A program made the translations under genes and the position numbers. Below the pieces are notes generated by a model. The model worked only from the letters and a program-made list of their open reading frames with translations, was not told the origin of the DNA and searched no databases. From assembly GCA_012518215.1 (NCBI GenBank), contig JAAYSV010000003.1, positions 1-64,000 of the forward strand: 64,000 nucleotides of DNA. Direction: 5' to 3'. Positions 7,891-41,878 of the stretch are shown in pieces (the stretch's first letter is position 1; each line of letters starts with the position of its first letter). The stretch comes from Bacillota bacterium. Lineage in GTDB: Bacteria; Bacillota; Dethiobacteria; DTU022; PWGO01.

Positions 7891-7962
7891 AACTGGCAGG
7901 AAGATTCCGCCCCATTATAGAATAAAATGTAAGAGGACTTCCAAACAAGGGAGATTATGTCA

Positions 7963-10926
7963 ATGGAAAAAAGAATGGCGATGATCAATCTTGGAGAGGA
8001 CGGGGGATCCGCACGGGCGGAATACGTCCGGAGTCTGGCAGTTTCCCTGGCGCGACAGGGACGTCGAAAGGTCGACATCTTTACCGGAAACCATGGCAAA
8101 GAGAAGAAGGTGGAACAGGTAAATGAAGATGTACAAATTGTTTATTTACCTGCGCCGCCCTGGACCGAGGATACGGAGGATCTGTTGCCGGTGCTGGATT
8201 CGGTTGCCGATGGGATTCTCGGCTACATTCATGAGCGGGAAATAGACTATGAATTCTTTCATTCTCATGGCTGGGAAGCAGGATATGCAGCCATTAAAAT
8301 TGTGGAACGGTCAGGCTCCTGGTTCATGCATACGCCCCATTCCCTTGCCCTGCAGGGGGGCGATGGGGGAGACTTTCCGGAACTGGATTCCGAGCGGCGA
8401 CATCAGAGAAAACTTGTCGAGCTGGAAAAGAATATTTTCAAGAAAGCCCGTGGAATCATAGCCTTGAAAAACACGGAACGGGCCGATTACCGGGACTCCT
8501 ACAGATATGAAGGGGAGAACGTCGCCGTGATCCCCCCGGGTGTGGATACCGGCATCTTCTTTCCGGCATTGAAAGGGGAAGAGAAAGATGATGTCGGTTT
8601 GCCAGAGCGTTATGTTCTGACCATGGCTCGCAACAACCTTCATCATGGTCTGGACAGGCTCATTCATGTTTTTGCCGCGTTGGCCGGAAAACACCCCCAT
8701 CTCTTTCTGATCATCGGTACATACGGAAAGACCACCGACCGCCGGGATGCACTCCAGAAAGATAAACTGGCGAAAATCGCCCAGGATTACGGTCTGGAAG
8801 AACGTATCATGTTCCCCCGGATTACCGACCGGGAACTGCTTGTTTCCTATTACCGCCGCGCCGGAGCATATATCGATCTTACCCTTTCGGGGCGCCACGA
8901 CCCGGCGTTGATGGAAGCCATGGCCTGCGGAGCCCCGGTGGTAGTTTCGGCGGCATCCCCCGCAAGAGTCTTTCTGAGCAACAACCGGGATGCCCTGATT
9001 GTCAATCCCAGGAGCAATGATGATATACGGCTGGCCGTTGAAAGAATATTGGGCACGGAGCCCCTTCGCCGTAGCCTGGCTCTCAATGCTGTGAAGACGG
9101 TCGGTGAAAAGTTTTCGTGGGCGGCGGTGGCGAAGGAGCATCTGAACCTTGCAATGGACGGCCTGGTCTGGATCAAGGATGGGAAGATAGGGGTATTGAG
9201 CCCCTACGGCCTGGGGGATCCGGCTAGCCTGGAGCCTTGCGAGGGAGTGGAAGTGATCATCAACGGCGAACTGGTCGAGCGCGGGAAAAATGTGTATGCA
9301 GAGGACGGGATCGTTCTCAAACCTGTTGATGAAACAGTGCCGGCCCGGATAGATCTTTCCATCGCCAGGGATGAATTGAGCGCCGAGGTGGAGGCTGCTC
9401 CCCAGATGCGGATCACCTACACACTGCTGGACCAGAAACCATCCAACCATCTGAAGCTTCAGGCGGAGCGGACGGAGAAGGTTCACCGCAGGGTTCTGAG
9501 AGAAGAGATCCTGGCTGTCCTGAAAGAAAATGGGGTTGTTTACGGCATTGATGGCGAGGCCCTGGAGGAACTCTCCGCTTCGGACATCCCCTTGAACAAG
9601 GTTGTTGCCCGGGGAGACCCGGTGCAGAACGGGGTAGATGGGTATGTGGAATATCTGGTCTCCACCGAGAAAGAAAAGGTGGTCTACGACGAGGAAGTGG
9701 CCAGGGTAAATTATCGTGAACGCTACATTATCCCCCAGGTGAACGAAGGCGATTTCCTGGGGGTCATTCATCCCCCGGTGGAAGGGGAGGCCGGCCGTAG
9801 TGTCAGGGGCCATGAACTGCCTCCTCCGCCGGTGAAGGAAGCCAGCGTTATCTGCCGGGACGGTGTTGCCTTGAATGAGGATCGGACCATGGTGATCGCG
9901 GAGGCAAAAGGGCGGCCCGTGATCAGGAAAGGACGCGAGGCGGCCTTCAAGATCGATCCATATTATGTCCATTACGGCAATGTGAGCATGAATACGGGAA
10001 ATGTCAGTTTCAAGGGGCATCTCAGGGTCGAAGGTTTTGTTGACGAGGGCATGGGTGTCAGTGCCGATGGGGATCTCCATATCACCGAGAACACCACCGG
10101 GGCATACATTTCCGCGGGCGGCAACGTGAACATTGGCGGCAACTGCATCAATAGCGATGTCATGGCCGGGGGGTTGTCGCTGCTCTGCCGGGAATTGCGA
10201 GAGAATCTGAATTTCCTGAAGACATCCATGGGGGCTGCCGTGGAAAACTACAAACAGATCGTGGAAGTCATGACCGAAAAACGCAAGCTCTACACCGGCG
10301 ATTTTCCCCGGATATTGAACCGTATTTTGCAGGTAAAATTTCCCGAGGTATTCGATCTGGCAGAAAGAATCGAGAAGCTGCTTCTGGAGAGAACCCGGTT
10401 TCCCATCCCCGACACGGCGGCCAGAATACTGAATGAACTGATCTTATTTTTCCTGAAAGAGGGGTTGTTGGAGGCCAGGGATGAGCAGTCCCTGAAAAGG
10501 GTTCATCGCCTGATCAGTGAAGCCATCAACATCCTTGCTCCGCTGGCAGCTAAAAAACAAGATATCATCGGACGTTATGCACAGAATAGCAAGCTGGAAT
10601 GCACCGGCGACATCATTATTGATGGTCCCGGGGTTTACAATTCCACTTTTGAATGTGGCGGGAAGGTGATCGTGCAGCGATTATTCCGCGGTGGTCATAT
10701 CAAGGCCGGCGGGGATATTTTCGTCGGGGAACTGGGCAGCCCGGGAACGTCGATTGCACAGGGGCTGGTGCAGGTCCCGGACGGGAACGCGATCAAACTG
10801 GGGAAGGTATATGAAGGTACAAGGATAAAGATTGGAGATAGCGCCTTCATGCTCGCTTCCACATACAACAGAGTTATCATCCATTATGACGAAGCGGAGA
10901 ACAAAGTAAAGGTATCATACTGGTAG
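7963..10926 (+). CDS. GT4 glycosyltransferase - FapA (DUF342) fusion protein
   Basis: The 987-residue protein has two halves. Residues ~1-400 form a GT-B glycosyltransferase of the sucrose-synthase/GT4 kind: N-terminal EDGGSARAEYVRSLAVSLAR, IPPGVDTGIF near 192 and the nucleotide-sugar site ALMEAMACGAPVVV near 317. Residues ~403-987 form a full-length FapA/DUF342 protein: an N-terminal FapA domain, then the beta-helix with VSMNTGNVSFKGHLRVEG and ISAGGNVNIGGNC, a helical insert, and a second strand set (CTGDIIIDGPGVYNSTFEC). FapA proteins are polarity or assembly factors of unclear biochemistry, and I know of no standard fusion to a glycosyltransferase. The frame is continuous. The ATG at 7963 sits nine bases after AAGGGAG; another ATG lies two codons earlier. 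Confidence 0.85.
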   Translation: MEKRMAMINLGEDGGSARAEYVRSLAVSLARQGRRKVDIFTGNHGKEKKVEQVNEDVQIVYLPAPPWTEDTEDLLPVLDSVADGILGYIHEREIDYEFFHSHGWEAGYAAIKIVERSGSWFMHTPHSLALQGGDGGDFPELDSERRHQRKLVELEKNIFKKARGIIALKNTERADYRDSYRYEGENVAVIPPGVDTGIFFPALKGEEKDDVGLPERYVLTMARNNLHHGLDRLIHVFAALAGKHPHLFLIIGTYGKTTDRRDALQKDKLAKIAQDYGLEERIMFPRITDRELLVSYYRRAGAYIDLTLSGRHDPALMEAMACGAPVVVSAASPARVFLSNNRDALIVNPRSNDDIRLAVERILGTEPLRRSLALNAVKTVGEKFSWAAVAKEHLNLAMDGLVWIKDGKIGVLSPYGLGDPASLEPCEGVEVIINGELVERGKNVYAEDGIVLKPVDETVPARIDLSIARDELSAEVEAAPQMRITYTLLDQKPSNHLKLQAERTEKVHRRVLREEILAVLKENGVVYGIDGEALEELSASDIPLNKVVARGDPVQNGVDGYVEYLVSTEKEKVVYDEEVARVNYRERYIIPQVNEGDFLGVIHPPVEGEAGRSVRGHELPPPPVKEASVICRDGVALNEDRTMVIAEAKGRPVIRKGREAAFKIDPYYVHYGNVSMNTGNVSFKGHLRVEGFVDEGMGVSADGDLHITENTTGAYISAGGNVNIGGNCINSDVMAGGLSLLCRELRENLNFLKTSMGAAVENYKQIVEVMTEKRKLYTGDFPRILNRILQVKFPEVFDLAERIEKLLLERTRFPIPDTAARILNELILFFLKEGLLEARDEQSLKRVHRLISEAINILAPLAAKKQDIIGRYAQNSKLECTGDIIIDGPGVYNSTFECGGKVIVQRLFRGGHIKAGGDIFVGELGSPGTSIAQGLVQVPDGNAIKLGKVYEGTRIKIGDSAFMLASTYNRVIIHYDEAENKVKVSYW

Positions 10927-22971: not shown

Positions 22972-25900
22972 TTATTTTTTCGCGGCAGGGAACTCATCTA
23001 TCAACCCCACGATATATCTGAGAATCGATATGGCATCGGCTACGGTCAGGGTTTCATTGCCTTCCACCCTGGCTCTGATCATGGCTTCCGGGCCATATTT
23101 TTCTTCTATATCGATCAGTTCCACTATATGCCTGAGAACGATGATGGCATCCTGAACCGATACATCACCGCTTCCCGTGATATCGCCGAATTCAAATTCG
23201 ATTTCGATATAGGTGGCTGTAACTGTTAAATCTTCGGTTACATTCGTGAAATCCCTGTCCCATCCGGTGAAGTTGTAGCCCTCCCTTTCAGGAGCTTCCG
23301 GGGCGGTGGCATCGGCGCCATGATTCACCTCTTCTTCTTTGAGCACCGTTCCGTCATGATCGACGAAGGTAACAGTGTAGGTCTTGATAGTATAGGTGGC
23401 TGTAACCGTCAGATCATTGGTCACGTTCGTGAATGATTTATCCCACCCGGCGAAGTTGTAGCCCTCCCTCCCGGGAACTGCCGGGGCGGTGGCATCGGCG
23501 CCATGATTCACCTCTTCTTCTTTGAGCACCGTTCCGTCATGATCGACGAAGGTAACGGTGTAGGTGTGCGGTTCATATTGAGCAAAGATATATAGATCCG
23601 TGGTTACATTTGTGAATTCCCTGTCCCATCCGGTGAAGGTATGGCCAACCCTTTCCGGAGCCGGTGGGGCGGTGGCATCGGCGCCATGATCCACCTCTTC
23701 TTCCTTGATTATCGACCAATCATGATCGACGAATGAAACGGTGTAGGTTTTGATACTGTAGGTGGCTGTAACCGTCAGGTCGTTGGTCACGTTTGTGAAT
23801 GATTTATCCCATCCGGCGAAGTTGTAGCCAACCCTTTCAGGGGCCGGCGGGGCGGTGGCACTGCCGCCTTGTCGCACGGTTTCCGTCTTGAGCACCGTTC
23901 CGTCATGATCGACGAAGGTAACGGTATGGGACTGATAACATGTGATGATGAATAGTACCGTTGTCCGGTTGCCATGTGTATCCCTGGCTGCAAGATAGAT
24001 TTCATGAATACCGGGGAGGTTGGCTTCCCAGCGAAGCTCTCCGCTGTTATCGCCGAATTCTTCCAGCAGAAGGCCATGGTCGAGCAGGCTGCTTGTAACC
24101 TCCATCTCTATATCATCGCCGTCGGGATCGCTTACCTCGTAAGGAATAACCACCTCATCGCCGATAGCCACATCGTCGATATGAGTCTCGTATTCATCCG
24201 GCTCCAGAAATTCGGGAGCGCTGTTTTCTTCGCTCAGAGAAATCGTGAAGTCATGGCCGCTGCTTTCTCTTTCCAGGCCGCTGACCGGGTCTTTCAGCGA
24301 GATGGTTACCCCGTAATCACCGGGAGCCAGCTCATCGGTTTTCCAGAAGAAATAGTAAGCACCGGGGTTGTAGATGCAGCCTTCCATTTCCGCGCCGTCT
24401 TCGAGCATTTCACCGCCCACCTTTTCGATGGACACCGCCGCTTCCAGGCCGCTGTGATTGGCGTAAACAGCAATGTCAACAGGGATGCCGGGCGGGTGTT
24501 CTCCGCCCGAGGCGGGGGTTGTCTGGAGATGAACGATTTCCGGTGCCGTGCGCTCCTCCCCGTAAATCACTTTCAGAGCGATATTCTTGCAGGGAGCTGC
24601 AGGATCATTGGTTTGTATCTCCAGGACCGTTTCCAGATCTGTCTCCGGAGGCTCGTCGGGCAGTGATAGCGGGATAGTTGCCAGAGTCTCCTGGCCGTCG
24701 TAGAGATTTATCTCTTCTGCCGGGGTGAGGGCCCAGTCTGCTTCCGAGTCAATTTCCACGGTGAGCAACCCGGTCCCGCTGTTTTTGATCAGAAAACGGG
24801 CGGTGGCTTCGGTCTCGCCGGGGGGCACTTCAACCTCGATGTCCGCATCATCCATCTCCAGAACGGGCAGAGACACGAACCCATCGATTGCAAATACCGC
24901 GGATGAGACAGCTTCCGTGAAGTGCAATTCATTGCTGACCCTGACCTTGAAACGGTAATTATCACCGGCAGGGAAGGCACCGGCATAAAGGGTGTGTGAA
25001 TATGTTCCGGGGCCATCGTGGGGGATATCCGCCTCGATGACCTGCCAGTTTTCGTCATCATCGCTGACGAAGATGGTGGAATACAGTGTGCCGTTTCCCG
25101 TCGCTTCCCAGGTCAGATCGAATTCCCCCGAGAGCGGACCGGATTCAGGGGCGATCAATGTTACCCCCGGGTAATCATCCGAATACTCATAGCGAACGGG
25201 ATCAACAAGGATGTCGGACCATGAATAAAGTAGCTTTCCTATCTCAATGGCTGCTTTCTCGGGATGGTCGGGCAGGCCCAGCGAAAATGAAGAGGTTCCG
25301 GCGGGGATCGCCACGGATTGCAGCATGTTCTCGGCAGCGCTGCTGCCGATGAAGCCCCTTTCCAGTATATTCCCGTCTCCATCGAGGAGGTGAACGGCGT
25401 ATTCGGCGTTTGAACGTTCGACACCAAAATTGGCCTTGCCCCTGTAGGGGAAGACCGGGTCCAGAAAGATTTCTGTTTCACCGGAATCGGTATCGATTAT
25501 TTCACCCGACACAAGCAGCAGATCCTTCTCCTCGTCTTCCTCCCCTTCCATGGTTGAGATCCCATGGGAATGCACAACGGATCCCAGTTCAACGGGCGAG
25601 GGTGCGAAGGAAGTGCGTTCGGTGGTTGCGTAGGCGAGCATGGCGTTGTATTCTTCGGTGGTTGGCCAGGGCAGAGCCGCATGGTCGTACATGATGGCTT
25701 CATACAGCGGTTCAAAATACTCATATCTGCCATTGTCCATATATTCGCAGTTGTTTATGGGCCTGTGTCTGTAACCGTTTGCCGAGGCGGGCCGCCACCC
25801 TTTCCTGAAGTCGTGCCATACCTCATCGGAGGGATATACATCAACAAAGCCCAGAGTATGAATGAATTCATGGATTAGCGTGTGATGCTTATCTTTCCCT

Positions 25901-27942
25901 TCGATGGCACCGGGATCAAGAAGGACTGCGCCTTTCACACCATCCATGGAAAGCCCCGCTGCGCCCATGAAGCCCGGGGGAACAATACCCACCATGAGGT
26001 CGCACACACTTGACATCTTCTGTATCCTTTCCAATTGGCGGAATATCTTGCTCAGATATAACCCCTGGGTAAAGTGATAGAAGTTTCTCGTAATTGGCAA
26101 GGAGAGTTCGACAATACTGTAGTCCAGGTGTACGGGGAAGACCTCGCGGGCATATTCCATCTGCTCGCGGATCACGTGTGGTTTATGAGCATTTCCCCAG
26201 GTTGTGGCCCATTCATTGTTATCACTCCAGGCTCCAACGCGCAGAGGCACAAAAATAAAGTTGAAGCTGTTCTTCCTGGGTACATGAATGTCCCGTGTCG
26301 GTGCAGGGTCGGTGATGGTTCCGAGTACCAGCGGGTTGCCGCGGTCTCCTGCATCCGGGCTCTTGGTTACCGCCCTGATACCGATTTTGTGATTCTCCAG
26401 GAGTGATGGGCTTATCTCCAGATACAGACGGTGCCTCCCCGAACGGATTTCGGCGTTGGAATACTCTTCCGAGAATGATGACGATTTGCTTCTGGCGATA
26501 ACCCTGTCGGGATCGTCGATATCATAAACTTCGATTCCAACATTCTTCAGCTTGAAATCGGAATTCTGGAAGGAGCCGCTTCGCACGCTGATCTTCGGCG
26601 ACAGATACAGGGGGGCTGCCCCTCTGCCATCGACAATATTGGCAGGGTTATCAATGGTCTGGGTGAGGTTCCATTCCAGATCCACGGGTGGGAAGGCTGT
26701 CATGATAAGGGATTCCGTCTTGCCGCTGTTGCCGAAAGTTATGATTGCTTTCCCTTCACTGTCTGTGGAGACTGATCTATTGAATAACCCCAGGAGACCT
26801 CCCCAGAAGACCAGCTGCTTGCCTTGCACGGGATTGCCTTCGGGATCCTGCATATGGACGGTAAGCGTGCCGTCGAATTCGCTCAAATGGGGAAAGGTGT
26901 AGTTTTGGTCGCCAATCACATTGTTCCTGAGCCTGGCATAAACAGCCTCTGAAGGTGCGGTGCAGCGATAGGAATCATCGGTATAATCCGTCACCAGGCC
27001 CCCCCCGAATTCGGGGGAGAGCTCCACAATGCCCGAATCATCACTTGTCTTCCATTCGGTCAGGTAGTATACGCGGTCAAAAGAGCCAAAAGCGTAGGCA
27101 ATGCGGGTTTTCAAATTTGCACGCGGAACTCTTTCACCGGAGTCCTCATCCGATACAGTGGTCAGCTTGAGGCGGATGCTGCCGTAGAAGGGGTAGGTGA
27201 TTCCTTCCCAGGTCCAGCCTGTTCCAACCACCAACTGCCGCACTACTTCTTCCCCGATCACGCTGCCACCATCATTGCCGAACTCAACCCTGGTCATTCC
27301 GTGGTCGATGTAGCAGAGCTCCAGTTGATAACCATAACCAAAACTCCAGGTCCAGTCCGGACTATTATTGTCTTTGTAGTGGTGGTCAAAATTTATAAGA
27401 CTGCCAGATATTTTGATTTCAAGATCTCCGACAAACTGGAAGGGGCCTGTTTCGACAACATCGGTTATGCTGAAAATATTATGAAGATTGTCTGCGGAGA
27501 GATCGATCAGATTCCCGTCGAGATACATTTTTATCGGGCTACCGGGATCGGGCGACACCATGAACGGATATCCGGTATTGATTTGCACGGCAAAACCCAG
27601 CTCGCCGGCATCGGGTACGTATCCCTGCCCGGGGGGATAAGTTCCATAGGACCGTTTGGTTTGCGGAAGTGTGTATGTAGTGCCTATATGCCAGCCATTT
27701 TCGATGCTGGCTATTCTACGGCTGCCCCCTTCGCTTGCCAAAACCGTGCCACTGACCTCACCATCTTCCAGAAGGGGGAATGGGGGCGATTCCTCCATAT
27801 TTTCCAGGCCGGTTTCCGGATAGGGGAATTCCACTTCCCCCGCCGACACGCCATCAAAATGATATGCACCGATCACATGTTCGACCGGAAAACCGGCAAA
27901 CAACAATCCCAGAATCAGTATGGCAATGATTTTTTTTCTCAT
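22972..27942 (-). CDS. Giant secreted metzincin-like protein with InlB repeats and dockerin-like tail
   Basis: The 1656-residue protein starts with a signal peptide (MRKKIIAILILGLLFAGFP, cleavage near residue 25). A long beta-rich N-terminal region is followed at residues 691-701 by HEFIHTLGFVD. This fits the metzincin zinc motif HExxHxxGxx(H/D), with Asp as third ligand as in snapalysin-type proteases. Ig/cadherin-like domains come next. Then come four ~62-residue InlB (Listeria-Bacteroides type) repeats, each with TFVDHDG- and GWD-type motifs. The end is a dockerin-like pair of helices at ~1586-1656 (SVQDAIIVLRHIV and TVADAISILRYIV). It likely acts outside the cell in adhesion or protein breakdown. 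No sortase motif is seen, and the dockerin-like loops lack several calcium ligands. Confidence 0.85.
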   Translation of the reverse strand: MRKKIIAILILGLLFAGFPVEHVIGAYHFDGVSAGEVEFPYPETGLENMEESPPFPLLEDGEVSGTVLASEGGSRRIASIENGWHIGTTYTLPQTKRSYGTYPPGQGYVPDAGELGFAVQINTGYPFMVSPDPGSPIKMYLDGNLIDLSADNLHNIFSITDVVETGPFQFVGDLEIKISGSLINFDHHYKDNNSPDWTWSFGYGYQLELCYIDHGMTRVEFGNDGGSVIGEEVVRQLVVGTGWTWEGITYPFYGSIRLKLTTVSDEDSGERVPRANLKTRIAYAFGSFDRVYYLTEWKTSDDSGIVELSPEFGGGLVTDYTDDSYRCTAPSEAVYARLRNNVIGDQNYTFPHLSEFDGTLTVHMQDPEGNPVQGKQLVFWGGLLGLFNRSVSTDSEGKAIITFGNSGKTESLIMTAFPPVDLEWNLTQTIDNPANIVDGRGAAPLYLSPKISVRSGSFQNSDFKLKNVGIEVYDIDDPDRVIARSKSSSFSEEYSNAEIRSGRHRLYLEISPSLLENHKIGIRAVTKSPDAGDRGNPLVLGTITDPAPTRDIHVPRKNSFNFIFVPLRVGAWSDNNEWATTWGNAHKPHVIREQMEYAREVFPVHLDYSIVELSLPITRNFYHFTQGLYLSKIFRQLERIQKMSSVCDLMVGIVPPGFMGAAGLSMDGVKGAVLLDPGAIEGKDKHHTLIHEFIHTLGFVDVYPSDEVWHDFRKGWRPASANGYRHRPINNCEYMDNGRYEYFEPLYEAIMYDHAALPWPTTEEYNAMLAYATTERTSFAPSPVELGSVVHSHGISTMEGEEDEEKDLLLVSGEIIDTDSGETEIFLDPVFPYRGKANFGVERSNAEYAVHLLDGDGNILERGFIGSSAAENMLQSVAIPAGTSSFSLGLPDHPEKAAIEIGKLLYSWSDILVDPVRYEYSDDYPGVTLIAPESGPLSGEFDLTWEATGNGTLYSTIFVSDDDENWQVIEADIPHDGPGTYSHTLYAGAFPAGDNYRFKVRVSNELHFTEAVSSAVFAIDGFVSLPVLEMDDADIEVEVPPGETEATARFLIKNSGTGLLTVEIDSEADWALTPAEEINLYDGQETLATIPLSLPDEPPETDLETVLEIQTNDPAAPCKNIALKVIYGEERTAPEIVHLQTTPASGGEHPPGIPVDIAVYANHSGLEAAVSIEKVGGEMLEDGAEMEGCIYNPGAYYFFWKTDELAPGDYGVTISLKDPVSGLERESSGHDFTISLSEENSAPEFLEPDEYETHIDDVAIGDEVVIPYEVSDPDGDDIEMEVTSSLLDHGLLLEEFGDNSGELRWEANLPGIHEIYLAARDTHGNRTTVLFIITCYQSHTVTFVDHDGTVLKTETVRQGGSATAPPAPERVGYNFAGWDKSFTNVTNDLTVTATYSIKTYTVSFVDHDWSIIKEEEVDHGADATAPPAPERVGHTFTGWDREFTNVTTDLYIFAQYEPHTYTVTFVDHDGTVLKEEEVNHGADATAPAVPGREGYNFAGWDKSFTNVTNDLTVTATYTIKTYTVTFVDHDGTVLKEEEVNHGADATAPEAPEREGYNFTGWDRDFTNVTEDLTVTATYIEIEFEFGDITGSGDVSVQDAIIVLRHIVELIDIEEKYGPEAMIRARVEGNETLTVADAISILRYIVGLIDEFPAAKK
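23200..23935 (-). repeat. Four tandem ~185-bp repeats inside the secreted protein gene
   Basis: They encode the InlB repeats. The DNA is also highly conserved: GTTCCGTCATGATCGACGAA occurs three times (near 23348, 23531 and 23898) and GGGGCGGTGGCATCGGCGCC three times. Repeat 2 is the most diverged (VDHDW instead of VDHDG). This suggests recent duplication or gene conversion and possible length variation between strains. Confidence 0.85.
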
Positions 27943-40122: not shown

Positions 40123-40219
40123 AATCTGGCAATATTTCCGGTACCGATCCGCTGTATCTGCTTTCCATCATTGACCATGCAAGCCCGAAAACAAAACAGG
40201 AATGGAGCATTGTCTCGGT

Positions 40220-41878
40220 ATGGTTAAATCCAGGATAAGTCTGCTGGGCGAAATTCTGGTTGAAGCCGGGGTGCTGAATTTCCGGCAGCTTGAAGAGGCT
40301 TTGAGCAAGGCCGAAGATTCCGGCAAGAGCTTCTACCGTGTCATTGCCGAGGAAAGGTATCTTCCCGATCAGGCACTGGTAGAGATTTTGCAGGAGAGGC
40401 TCGGACTCCGTTTTGTTGATCTGGAGAAGCACGAGCCGGATCCAGACGCTGTCGCCGCTGTTCCCGAGGAGCTGGCCCGGCGCCATCATCTTATCCCTGT
40501 CGGCAGGGAAGGGCGCCGTCTCCTTCTGGCCATGGCCGACCCCACGGATGGTGCCGCCATCGAAGATGTTTCCGTCGTTACTGCGGCAGAAATTGAGCCG
40601 GTGATCGCCCCGGAACGGGCTATCCACGATGCCCTGGATCGTTTTTTCGGTTCATCAGGCCGGGAACAGGAGGAAATTCCGGCAACACCGGCAACGGCTT
40701 TCTTGCCCGATGATGATTCCATCGTGGCGGTGGTCAACTCCATCATCTGGAAGGCAGTCTCCGAGGGAGCCAGCGACATCCACATCGAGCCCACGGGGAA
40801 GGGCCTGCGCGTGCGACTGCGCATAGATGGCTTTCTTCATGATTATCTCTTTCCCCCCGAGGGAAGCCATGCCCGGGTTGTCTCCCGCATCAAGGTCATG
40901 GCCCAGATGAACATTGCCGAAAAACGGCTGCCCCAGGATGGCCAGATTGAATTGCGGCGCGGGCACCGGATCGTGAATATCAGGGTATCGACCTTGCCTA
41001 CCATCCATGGCGAGAAGATGGTGCTGCGCCTCCTTGAAAAAGAAAGGATCATCCTCTCCCTGGAGAAGATAGGTTTTTCCCGGCGGAACAAAGAATTTTT
41101 CATGGAATTCATCCGTCATTCCCATGGCATCATACTGCTGTCCGGGCCGACGGGGTGCGGCAAGACCACCACCCTCTACTCTGCATTGAGTTATTTGAAC
41201 AACCCTGCTTGCAACATCGTTACCGTGGAGGATCCCGTGGAATTCCGCCTTGACGGTGTCAACCAGGTGCAGGTTAACAGGAAGATAGATCTTACTTTTG
41301 CGGCTTCGTTGCGCACCATTCTGCGCCAGGATCCGGACATCATCATGATCGGCGAGATGCGCGACCTGGAGACGGCGGAGGTGGGCATGAGAGCTTCACT
41401 GACCGGGCATCTGGTCTTCAGCACCCTGCATACCAACAACGCTTCACAGGCGGTGACGAGGCTGGTTGATATGGGGGTGCCTCCATTCCTGGTCTCCTCC
41501 ACCCTGGTGGGCGTGGTGGCGCAGAGGCTGGTGCGCAAGATCTGCCCGTATTGCCGGGAAGGATACCCACCGGGCGATGAGGATAAAGAACTTTACCGTG
41601 TTCTGGGCGGGGGGATGGAGCTGCCGCCCGTTCTTTACCGGGGAAAGGGATGCCGGCGGTGCAACGATGGGTATCGCGGGCGGACGGCGATCCACGAGAT
41701 TCAGCCGATCACGACGGAGATGCGCACCCTGATCATGGAGGGGGCCACCCCGGCCCTGTTGCAGGAGAAGGCGCTGGCAATGGGATGCCGCACCTTGTTT
41801 CAGGATGGATTGTTGAAAGCGGAGGAAGGAATCTCCACGCTGGATGAGATAAAAAGGGTGGCTCTGGGCGAGTTTTGA
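40220..41878 (+). CDS. pilB: Type IV pilus assembly ATPase PilB (GspE family)
   Basis: In this 552-residue motor protein the N-terminal GspE domain starts ISLLGEILVEAGVLNFRQLEEAL. The core has the Walker A GPTGCGKTTTLYSAL, the Asp box RQDPDIIMIGEMRD and the His box TGHLVFSTLHTNNA. The zinc-binding CPYC...CRRC pair lies near residue 450. PilB powers pilin polymerisation at the inner face of the membrane. An in-frame ATG 18 bases earlier lacks a usable ribosome site. It follows aroE by about 100 bp and precedes pilT by 19 bp. Confidence 0.95.
   Translation: MVKSRISLLGEILVEAGVLNFRQLEEALSKAEDSGKSFYRVIAEERYLPDQALVEILQERLGLRFVDLEKHEPDPDAVAAVPEELARRHHLIPVGREGRRLLLAMADPTDGAAIEDVSVVTAAEIEPVIAPERAIHDALDRFFGSSGREQEEIPATPATAFLPDDDSIVAVVNSIIWKAVSEGASDIHIEPTGKGLRVRLRIDGFLHDYLFPPEGSHARVVSRIKVMAQMNIAEKRLPQDGQIELRRGHRIVNIRVSTLPTIHGEKMVLRLLEKERIILSLEKIGFSRRNKEFFMEFIRHSHGIILLSGPTGCGKTTTLYSALSYLNNPACNIVTVEDPVEFRLDGVNQVQVNRKIDLTFAASLRTILRQDPDIIMIGEMRDLETAEVGMRASLTGHLVFSTLHTNNASQAVTRLVDMGVPPFLVSSTLVGVVAQRLVRKICPYCREGYPPGDEDKELYRVLGGGMELPPVLYRGKGCRRCNDGYRGRTAIHEIQPITTEMRTLIMEGATPALLQEKALAMGCRTLFQDGLLKAEEGISTLDEIKRVALGEF

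Follow-up and report, generated by a model that had tools for sequence, protein, structure and literature searches.

One open reading frame in the 64,000-nucleotide stretch of DNA analysed here (the window), which comes from a Bacillota bacterium, was found to join a glycosyltransferase (GT) domain of the GT4 type to a full-length FapA protein, and this GT-FapA fusion is real in the assembly. The encoded protein is best explained, with a probability that we place at about 0.6, as a lineage-specific duplicate of FapA bearing an N-terminal pseudo-glycosyltransferase, the role of which is probably binding or structural. By this account a FapA gene would have been duplicated within the lineage and a duplicate of a sucrose-phosphate-synthase (SPS)-like GT4 gene would have been fused to the N-terminus of the FapA duplicate, with the GT half keeping its GT-B fold and losing most of its donor-site residues. 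The protein then probably acts as a FapA-type scaffold. Its pseudo-GT would have a structural role or would bind something, for which a sugar phosphate, a nucleotide and a partner protein are candidates. Both the FapA and the GT4 families are known; it is the fusion of a GT half onto FapA that appears to be new, and no GT-FapA fusion was described in the literature searched, where a search on GT-B pseudoenzymes also gave nothing.

The fusion gene and its FapA half

The frame is unbroken from position 7957 to 10926 on the forward strand and encodes 989 aa when counted from the first ATG. However, the ATG at 7963 is the likelier start, since the AAGGGAG sequence sits 9 nt before it (Table 1). 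In the 989-codon frame the GT-B/GT4 region occupies residues 1-398 and the full FapA occupies residues 400-989. Two GT4 domains were identified by Pfam in the first half (PF13439 at 23-198 and PF00534 at 216-378), and the second half contains FapA_N at 493-658 (125.8 bits, cut-off 27) followed by the FapA beta-solenoid from residue 669 (97 bits, cut-off 31). The codon log-likelihood prefers the fusion frame in 19 of the 19 windows tested along the frame, and both halves are similar to their gene neighbours in GC3 and codon use. The frame therefore gives no sign of a frameshift artefact or of a long-dead pseudogene. The unbroken 987-aa frame from 7963 given in the preliminary description is thus confirmed by the open reading frame, the Pfam matches and the codon signal. 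An open frame of 589 codons (8311-10080, reverse strand) runs antisense to the fusion gene and probably just reflects the codon use of that gene.

The FapA half retains 49 of the 54 family-invariant FapA positions which, together with the Pfam scores above the cut-offs, bears out its description as full-length. A sequence search for solved-structure relatives of FapA found none. The model of the whole protein reached a pTM of 0.48 and was poor over the C-terminal half of the GT, so the predicted domain arrangement was set aside.

Table 1. Features of the fusion gene (positions in the window)
Feature	Position	Strand	Remarks
Shine-Dalgarno-like AAGGGAG	7947..7953	+	From the sequence; 9 nt before ATG 7963, only 3 nt before ATG 7957
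Fusion gene, GT4-like domain + FapA	7963..10926	+	987 aa; 989 aa if ATG 7957 is used
Gly-rich donor/acceptor loop, altered	7990..8028	+	LGEDGGSARAEYV vs LGATDTGGQVVYV; from alignments
His128, retained	8338..8340	+	Equivalent to catalytic His158 of TeSPS
Phosphate-binding segment RNNLHHG	8629..8649	+	Arg225 kept (TeSPS R249); His230 in place of the conserved Lys
EX7E loop	8878..8916	+	LTLSGRHDPALME in place of SSRFEPFGMTxIE
Junction EHLNLAMDG	9139..9165	+	Terminal helix of the GT-B domain abuts the FapA start
FapA half	9154..10923	+	N-terminal beta domain, FapA_N (9433-9930), beta-solenoid with inserted helical hairpins

The glycosyltransferase half and its donor site

The GT half belongs to the SPS-like GT4 subfamily of the host's order. 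Its model (pLDDT 81, pTM 0.82) shows the two-Rossmann GT-B fold expected of it from the earlier assignment, and Foldseek superposes the model on TeSPS (6kih) with a TM of 0.76 and on MshA (3c4q) with 0.74, the range over these two and HoSPS (2r60) being 0.69-0.76. The PPGVD and EAMACG sites reported before are present, together with an HSH motif, and the GT-B core positions are still conserved in the alignment. The GT cannot, however, be called complete as first proposed: compared to its paralogs it lacks several donor-site residues and a ten-residue N-terminal segment, HGYFDPxPx, deleted just before the altered Gly-rich loop. In a phmmer search of the PDB, the match to TeSPS scored 95 bits for the fused half compared to 190 bits for the stand-alone paralog.

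The residues were mapped to TeSPS through the 6kih alignment, with an offset of +3 from chain index to the numbering of the paper (PMC7264703). The Gly-Gly loop is replaced by Ser18-Ala19 in the alignments, with a GG occurring two residues earlier. The first Glu of the EX7E loop (TeSPS E331) corresponds to G312 in the ungapped 12-row alignment, where the 11 other rows all keep Glu; in an alternative, gapped alignment its position is occupied by D315 with the three residues FGM deleted, and Asp315 could there stand in for the lost Glu. The E331A mutant of TeSPS is inactive, and the equivalent residue is also essential in AceA and muscle glycogen synthase (PMC7264703). The active-site Lys of the diphosphate site, which none of the 11 aligned relatives lacks, is His230 in the GT half (H229/H230 for TeSPS R253/K254), TeSPS R105 is substituted by T73, and R178 by L153, or by K152 under another alignment. 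The second EX7E Glu, the ribose Glu (E339 in TeSPS), is kept as E320. Altogether, 86 of the 148 positions invariant in five relatives are kept in the GT half, and each standard GT member keeps 92-96% of the invariant positions in a leave-one-out comparison. The possibility that a frameshift produced the altered EX7E loop was considered and rejected, as the PFG seen by inspection in another frame is displaced from the register by about 10 nt.

The GT tree places the fused half in a clade with the stand-alone GT of its own genome (contig C50) and those of G002, G028, G020 and G019, where the 100/100 support refers to membership of the clade and not to placement inside it, the G019 branch also being long (1.16) and the program warning that long branches meet. 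The branch of the fused half measures 1.6, about ten times longer than the 0.09-0.16 of the four standard members. Signs of degeneration are also seen in the stand-alone SPS-like GT of G019 (L027:4467-5702), from another family of the order, its catalytic His being changed to Cys, the phosphate Arg to Ala and Gly-Gly to Met-Gly, with the EX7E Glu kept. Standard SPS-like GT genes were observed in a conserved cluster together with a gene for a PRK/uridine-kinase-like protein (L022:1652-5995, L024:3638-8511, L025:4336-6320 and L026:4272-6231), and the first two of these clusters additionally hold an HD/YfbR-like and a small SCP2-like protein.

Judging from these substitutions, the GT half has probably lost its donor-substrate chemistry and with it, most likely, all catalysis. 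It may nevertheless still bind nucleotides or have some activity, because it keeps the catalytic His, the phosphate Arg and the ribose Glu. The retention of His128, Arg225 and Glu320, the well-modelled GT-B fold and the existence of pseudo-glycosyltransferases with new chemistry (PMC3441724, PMC12041759) would all suit a GT half that is still an enzyme, one that uses another donor or acceptor or carries out a different reaction in the manner of VldE and ValL, and that is positioned by FapA. We consider this unlikely, as the Gly-Gly loop, the EPFGM loop, the first EX7E Glu and the active-site Lys were all lost together, the GT branch is very long and sugar or glycan genes are absent alongside.

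The genes surrounding the fusion gene are metabolic, coding for a DUF362 protein, an ornithine aminotransferase, a phosphoserine aminotransferase (serC) and a CoA-dehydratase activase, and no glycan, sugar or flagellar genes were found among these neighbours. The relatives of the GT half resemble TeSPS, an enzyme that makes a soluble phosphorylated disaccharide rather than polymerising a glycan. A working link between FapA and glycan synthesis, which the preliminary description had drawn from the fusion, is thus not supported by either the neighbours or the relatives.

Distribution, origin and the junction

The fused protein was searched in genome sets of the order (60), the class (98), the phylum (399) and two further classes (17 and 22), amounting to 491 distinct genomes, and the host's fusion was the only one found among them. 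FapA matches begin at query position ~340-425 or later, with the exception of G486 (start at 317, in a 700-codon open frame), and GT matches stop at ~398 or earlier and sit in separate frames. The relatives encode FapA or the SPS-like GT as separate genes, and conservation of the fusion, the check suggested in the preliminary description, was seen in no genome searched. A first scan of a named-genome collection gave no relative; a second gave 79 FapA loci, and this GT was found at none of them. Among the named relatives are Syntrophomonadaceae MAGs and Dethiobacter.

The host genome also carries a stand-alone FapA on contig C6, 52-53% identical to the fused FapA half, and its stand-alone GT on C50 is 41% identical to the fused GT half. 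The FapA tree pairs the fused copy with the C6 FapA as sisters (99/96) and puts G001 outside the pair (97/99), which places a FapA duplication in the lineage of this family. Two FapA genes lying close together on one contig were observed in three genomes of family f5 (G049, G035 and G023; L011, L017 and G023:C72).

Like the fusion gene, the C6 paralog lies away from flagellar genes. The host probably makes flagella, since its genome contains FlhA. Elsewhere in the window, 22972-27942 (reverse strand) encodes a protein of 1656 aa that carries Listeria-Bacteroides repeat domains (Flg_new) and is likely to lie at the cell surface, and 40202-41878 (forward strand), about 29 kb from the fusion gene, encodes a Type II/IV secretion ATPase with an MshEN domain that suggests a type IV pilus or secretion cluster.

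The two halves are joined at residues ~398-401 (window ~9150-9158), the point where the stand-alone GTs of the family end and the stand-alone FapAs begin, and the junction sequence EHLNL-AMDGLVWI leaves a linker of a couple of residues at most. An in-frame ATG at 9154 falls on the FapA boundary, preceded by AAGGAG at 9133-9138. Such an arrangement, along with the occurrence of the fusion in one genome only among those searched, would suit a neutral read-through in which FapA is the useful product, made partly from the internal ATG, and the GT half is a passive, decaying cargo. This seems unlikely, and somewhat less probable than a surviving enzyme: separate initiation of FapA looks weak because the 15 nt between the AAGGAG and the ATG are more than efficient initiation would allow, and some 400 GT codons are still open with a coding-like signal and with the GT-B core positions conserved. 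Loss of a stop codon between two neighbouring genes through an assembly or consensus error is highly improbable. In its favour, this is one draft assembly of 61 contigs, no other assembly of this species turned up, and the join coincides with natural gene ends; against it, the frame is continuous with a uniform coding signal and without an indel signature, GT and FapA genes are adjacent in none of the relatives' loci read, where a precursor of the fusion might have been seen, and a consensus substitution exactly at the join is unlikely.

Implications for FapA and comparison with known systems

The role of FapA in flagellar polarity and assembly is known from Vibrio (work cited in PMC6877527), and as regards FapA chemistry, any domain that is naturally tethered to FapA serves as a lead. 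The lead provided by the fusion points to sugar or nucleotide binding and away from catalysis, which would fit the binding of Vibrio FapA by dephosphorylated EIIA-Glc, a sugar-transport protein, as reported in the same source. On this analogy, the pseudo-GT might be a sugar-nucleotide or sugar-phosphate sensor that reports the sugar state of the cell to FapA, a built-in counterpart of the Vibrio FapA-EIIA-Glc pair; we regard this special case of the pseudo-glycosyltransferase reading as plausible in principle though rather doubtful. As the fusion occurs in one lineage and is not conserved, it says little about FapA proteins generally. The proposals that it reveals the biochemistry of FapA, or that FapA positions glycan synthesis, find no support in this restricted distribution and the probable loss of donor chemistry in the GT half, and the earlier interpretation as a whole is only partly supported.

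VldE and ValL, GT-B proteins whose chemistry is not ordinary glycosyl transfer, offer a parallel to the GT half, although they are active coupling enzymes encoded in antibiotic clusters and the fusion gene has no such context. Members of the FapA family (Pfam PF20250 and PF03961, formerly DUF342) share with the fusion a complete FapA_N and beta-solenoid but are without its N-terminal GT-B domain, and in a Pfam scan of long FapAs the only N-terminal extension to receive a name was Jag_N. Five proteobacterial FapAs (L102, L106, L108, L116 and L117) have in common a long N-terminal extension with a motif like LSYIAxxFxIRV, for which no Pfam match was obtained in the three scanned (L102, L106 and L116), and a 987-aa FapA of Candidatus Marispirochaeta (L105:2474-5434) contains four FapA_N stretches followed by one solenoid. 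The FapA gene of family f3 adjoins FlgM- and FlgK-like genes (named by inspection of the translations), whereas the fusion gene is not part of a flagellar cluster. Finally, the GT half has in common with the retaining GT4 enzymes of the SPS/MshA type (TeSPS 6kih, HoSPS 2r60 and MshA 3c4q) the fold, the HSH, PPGVD and EAMACG motifs and the equivalents of His158, R249 and E339, whereas the Gly-Gly loop, the EPFGL loop and the equivalents of E331, K254, R253 and R105 are changed or lost, and the fusion differs further from these enzymes by its added C-terminal FapA.
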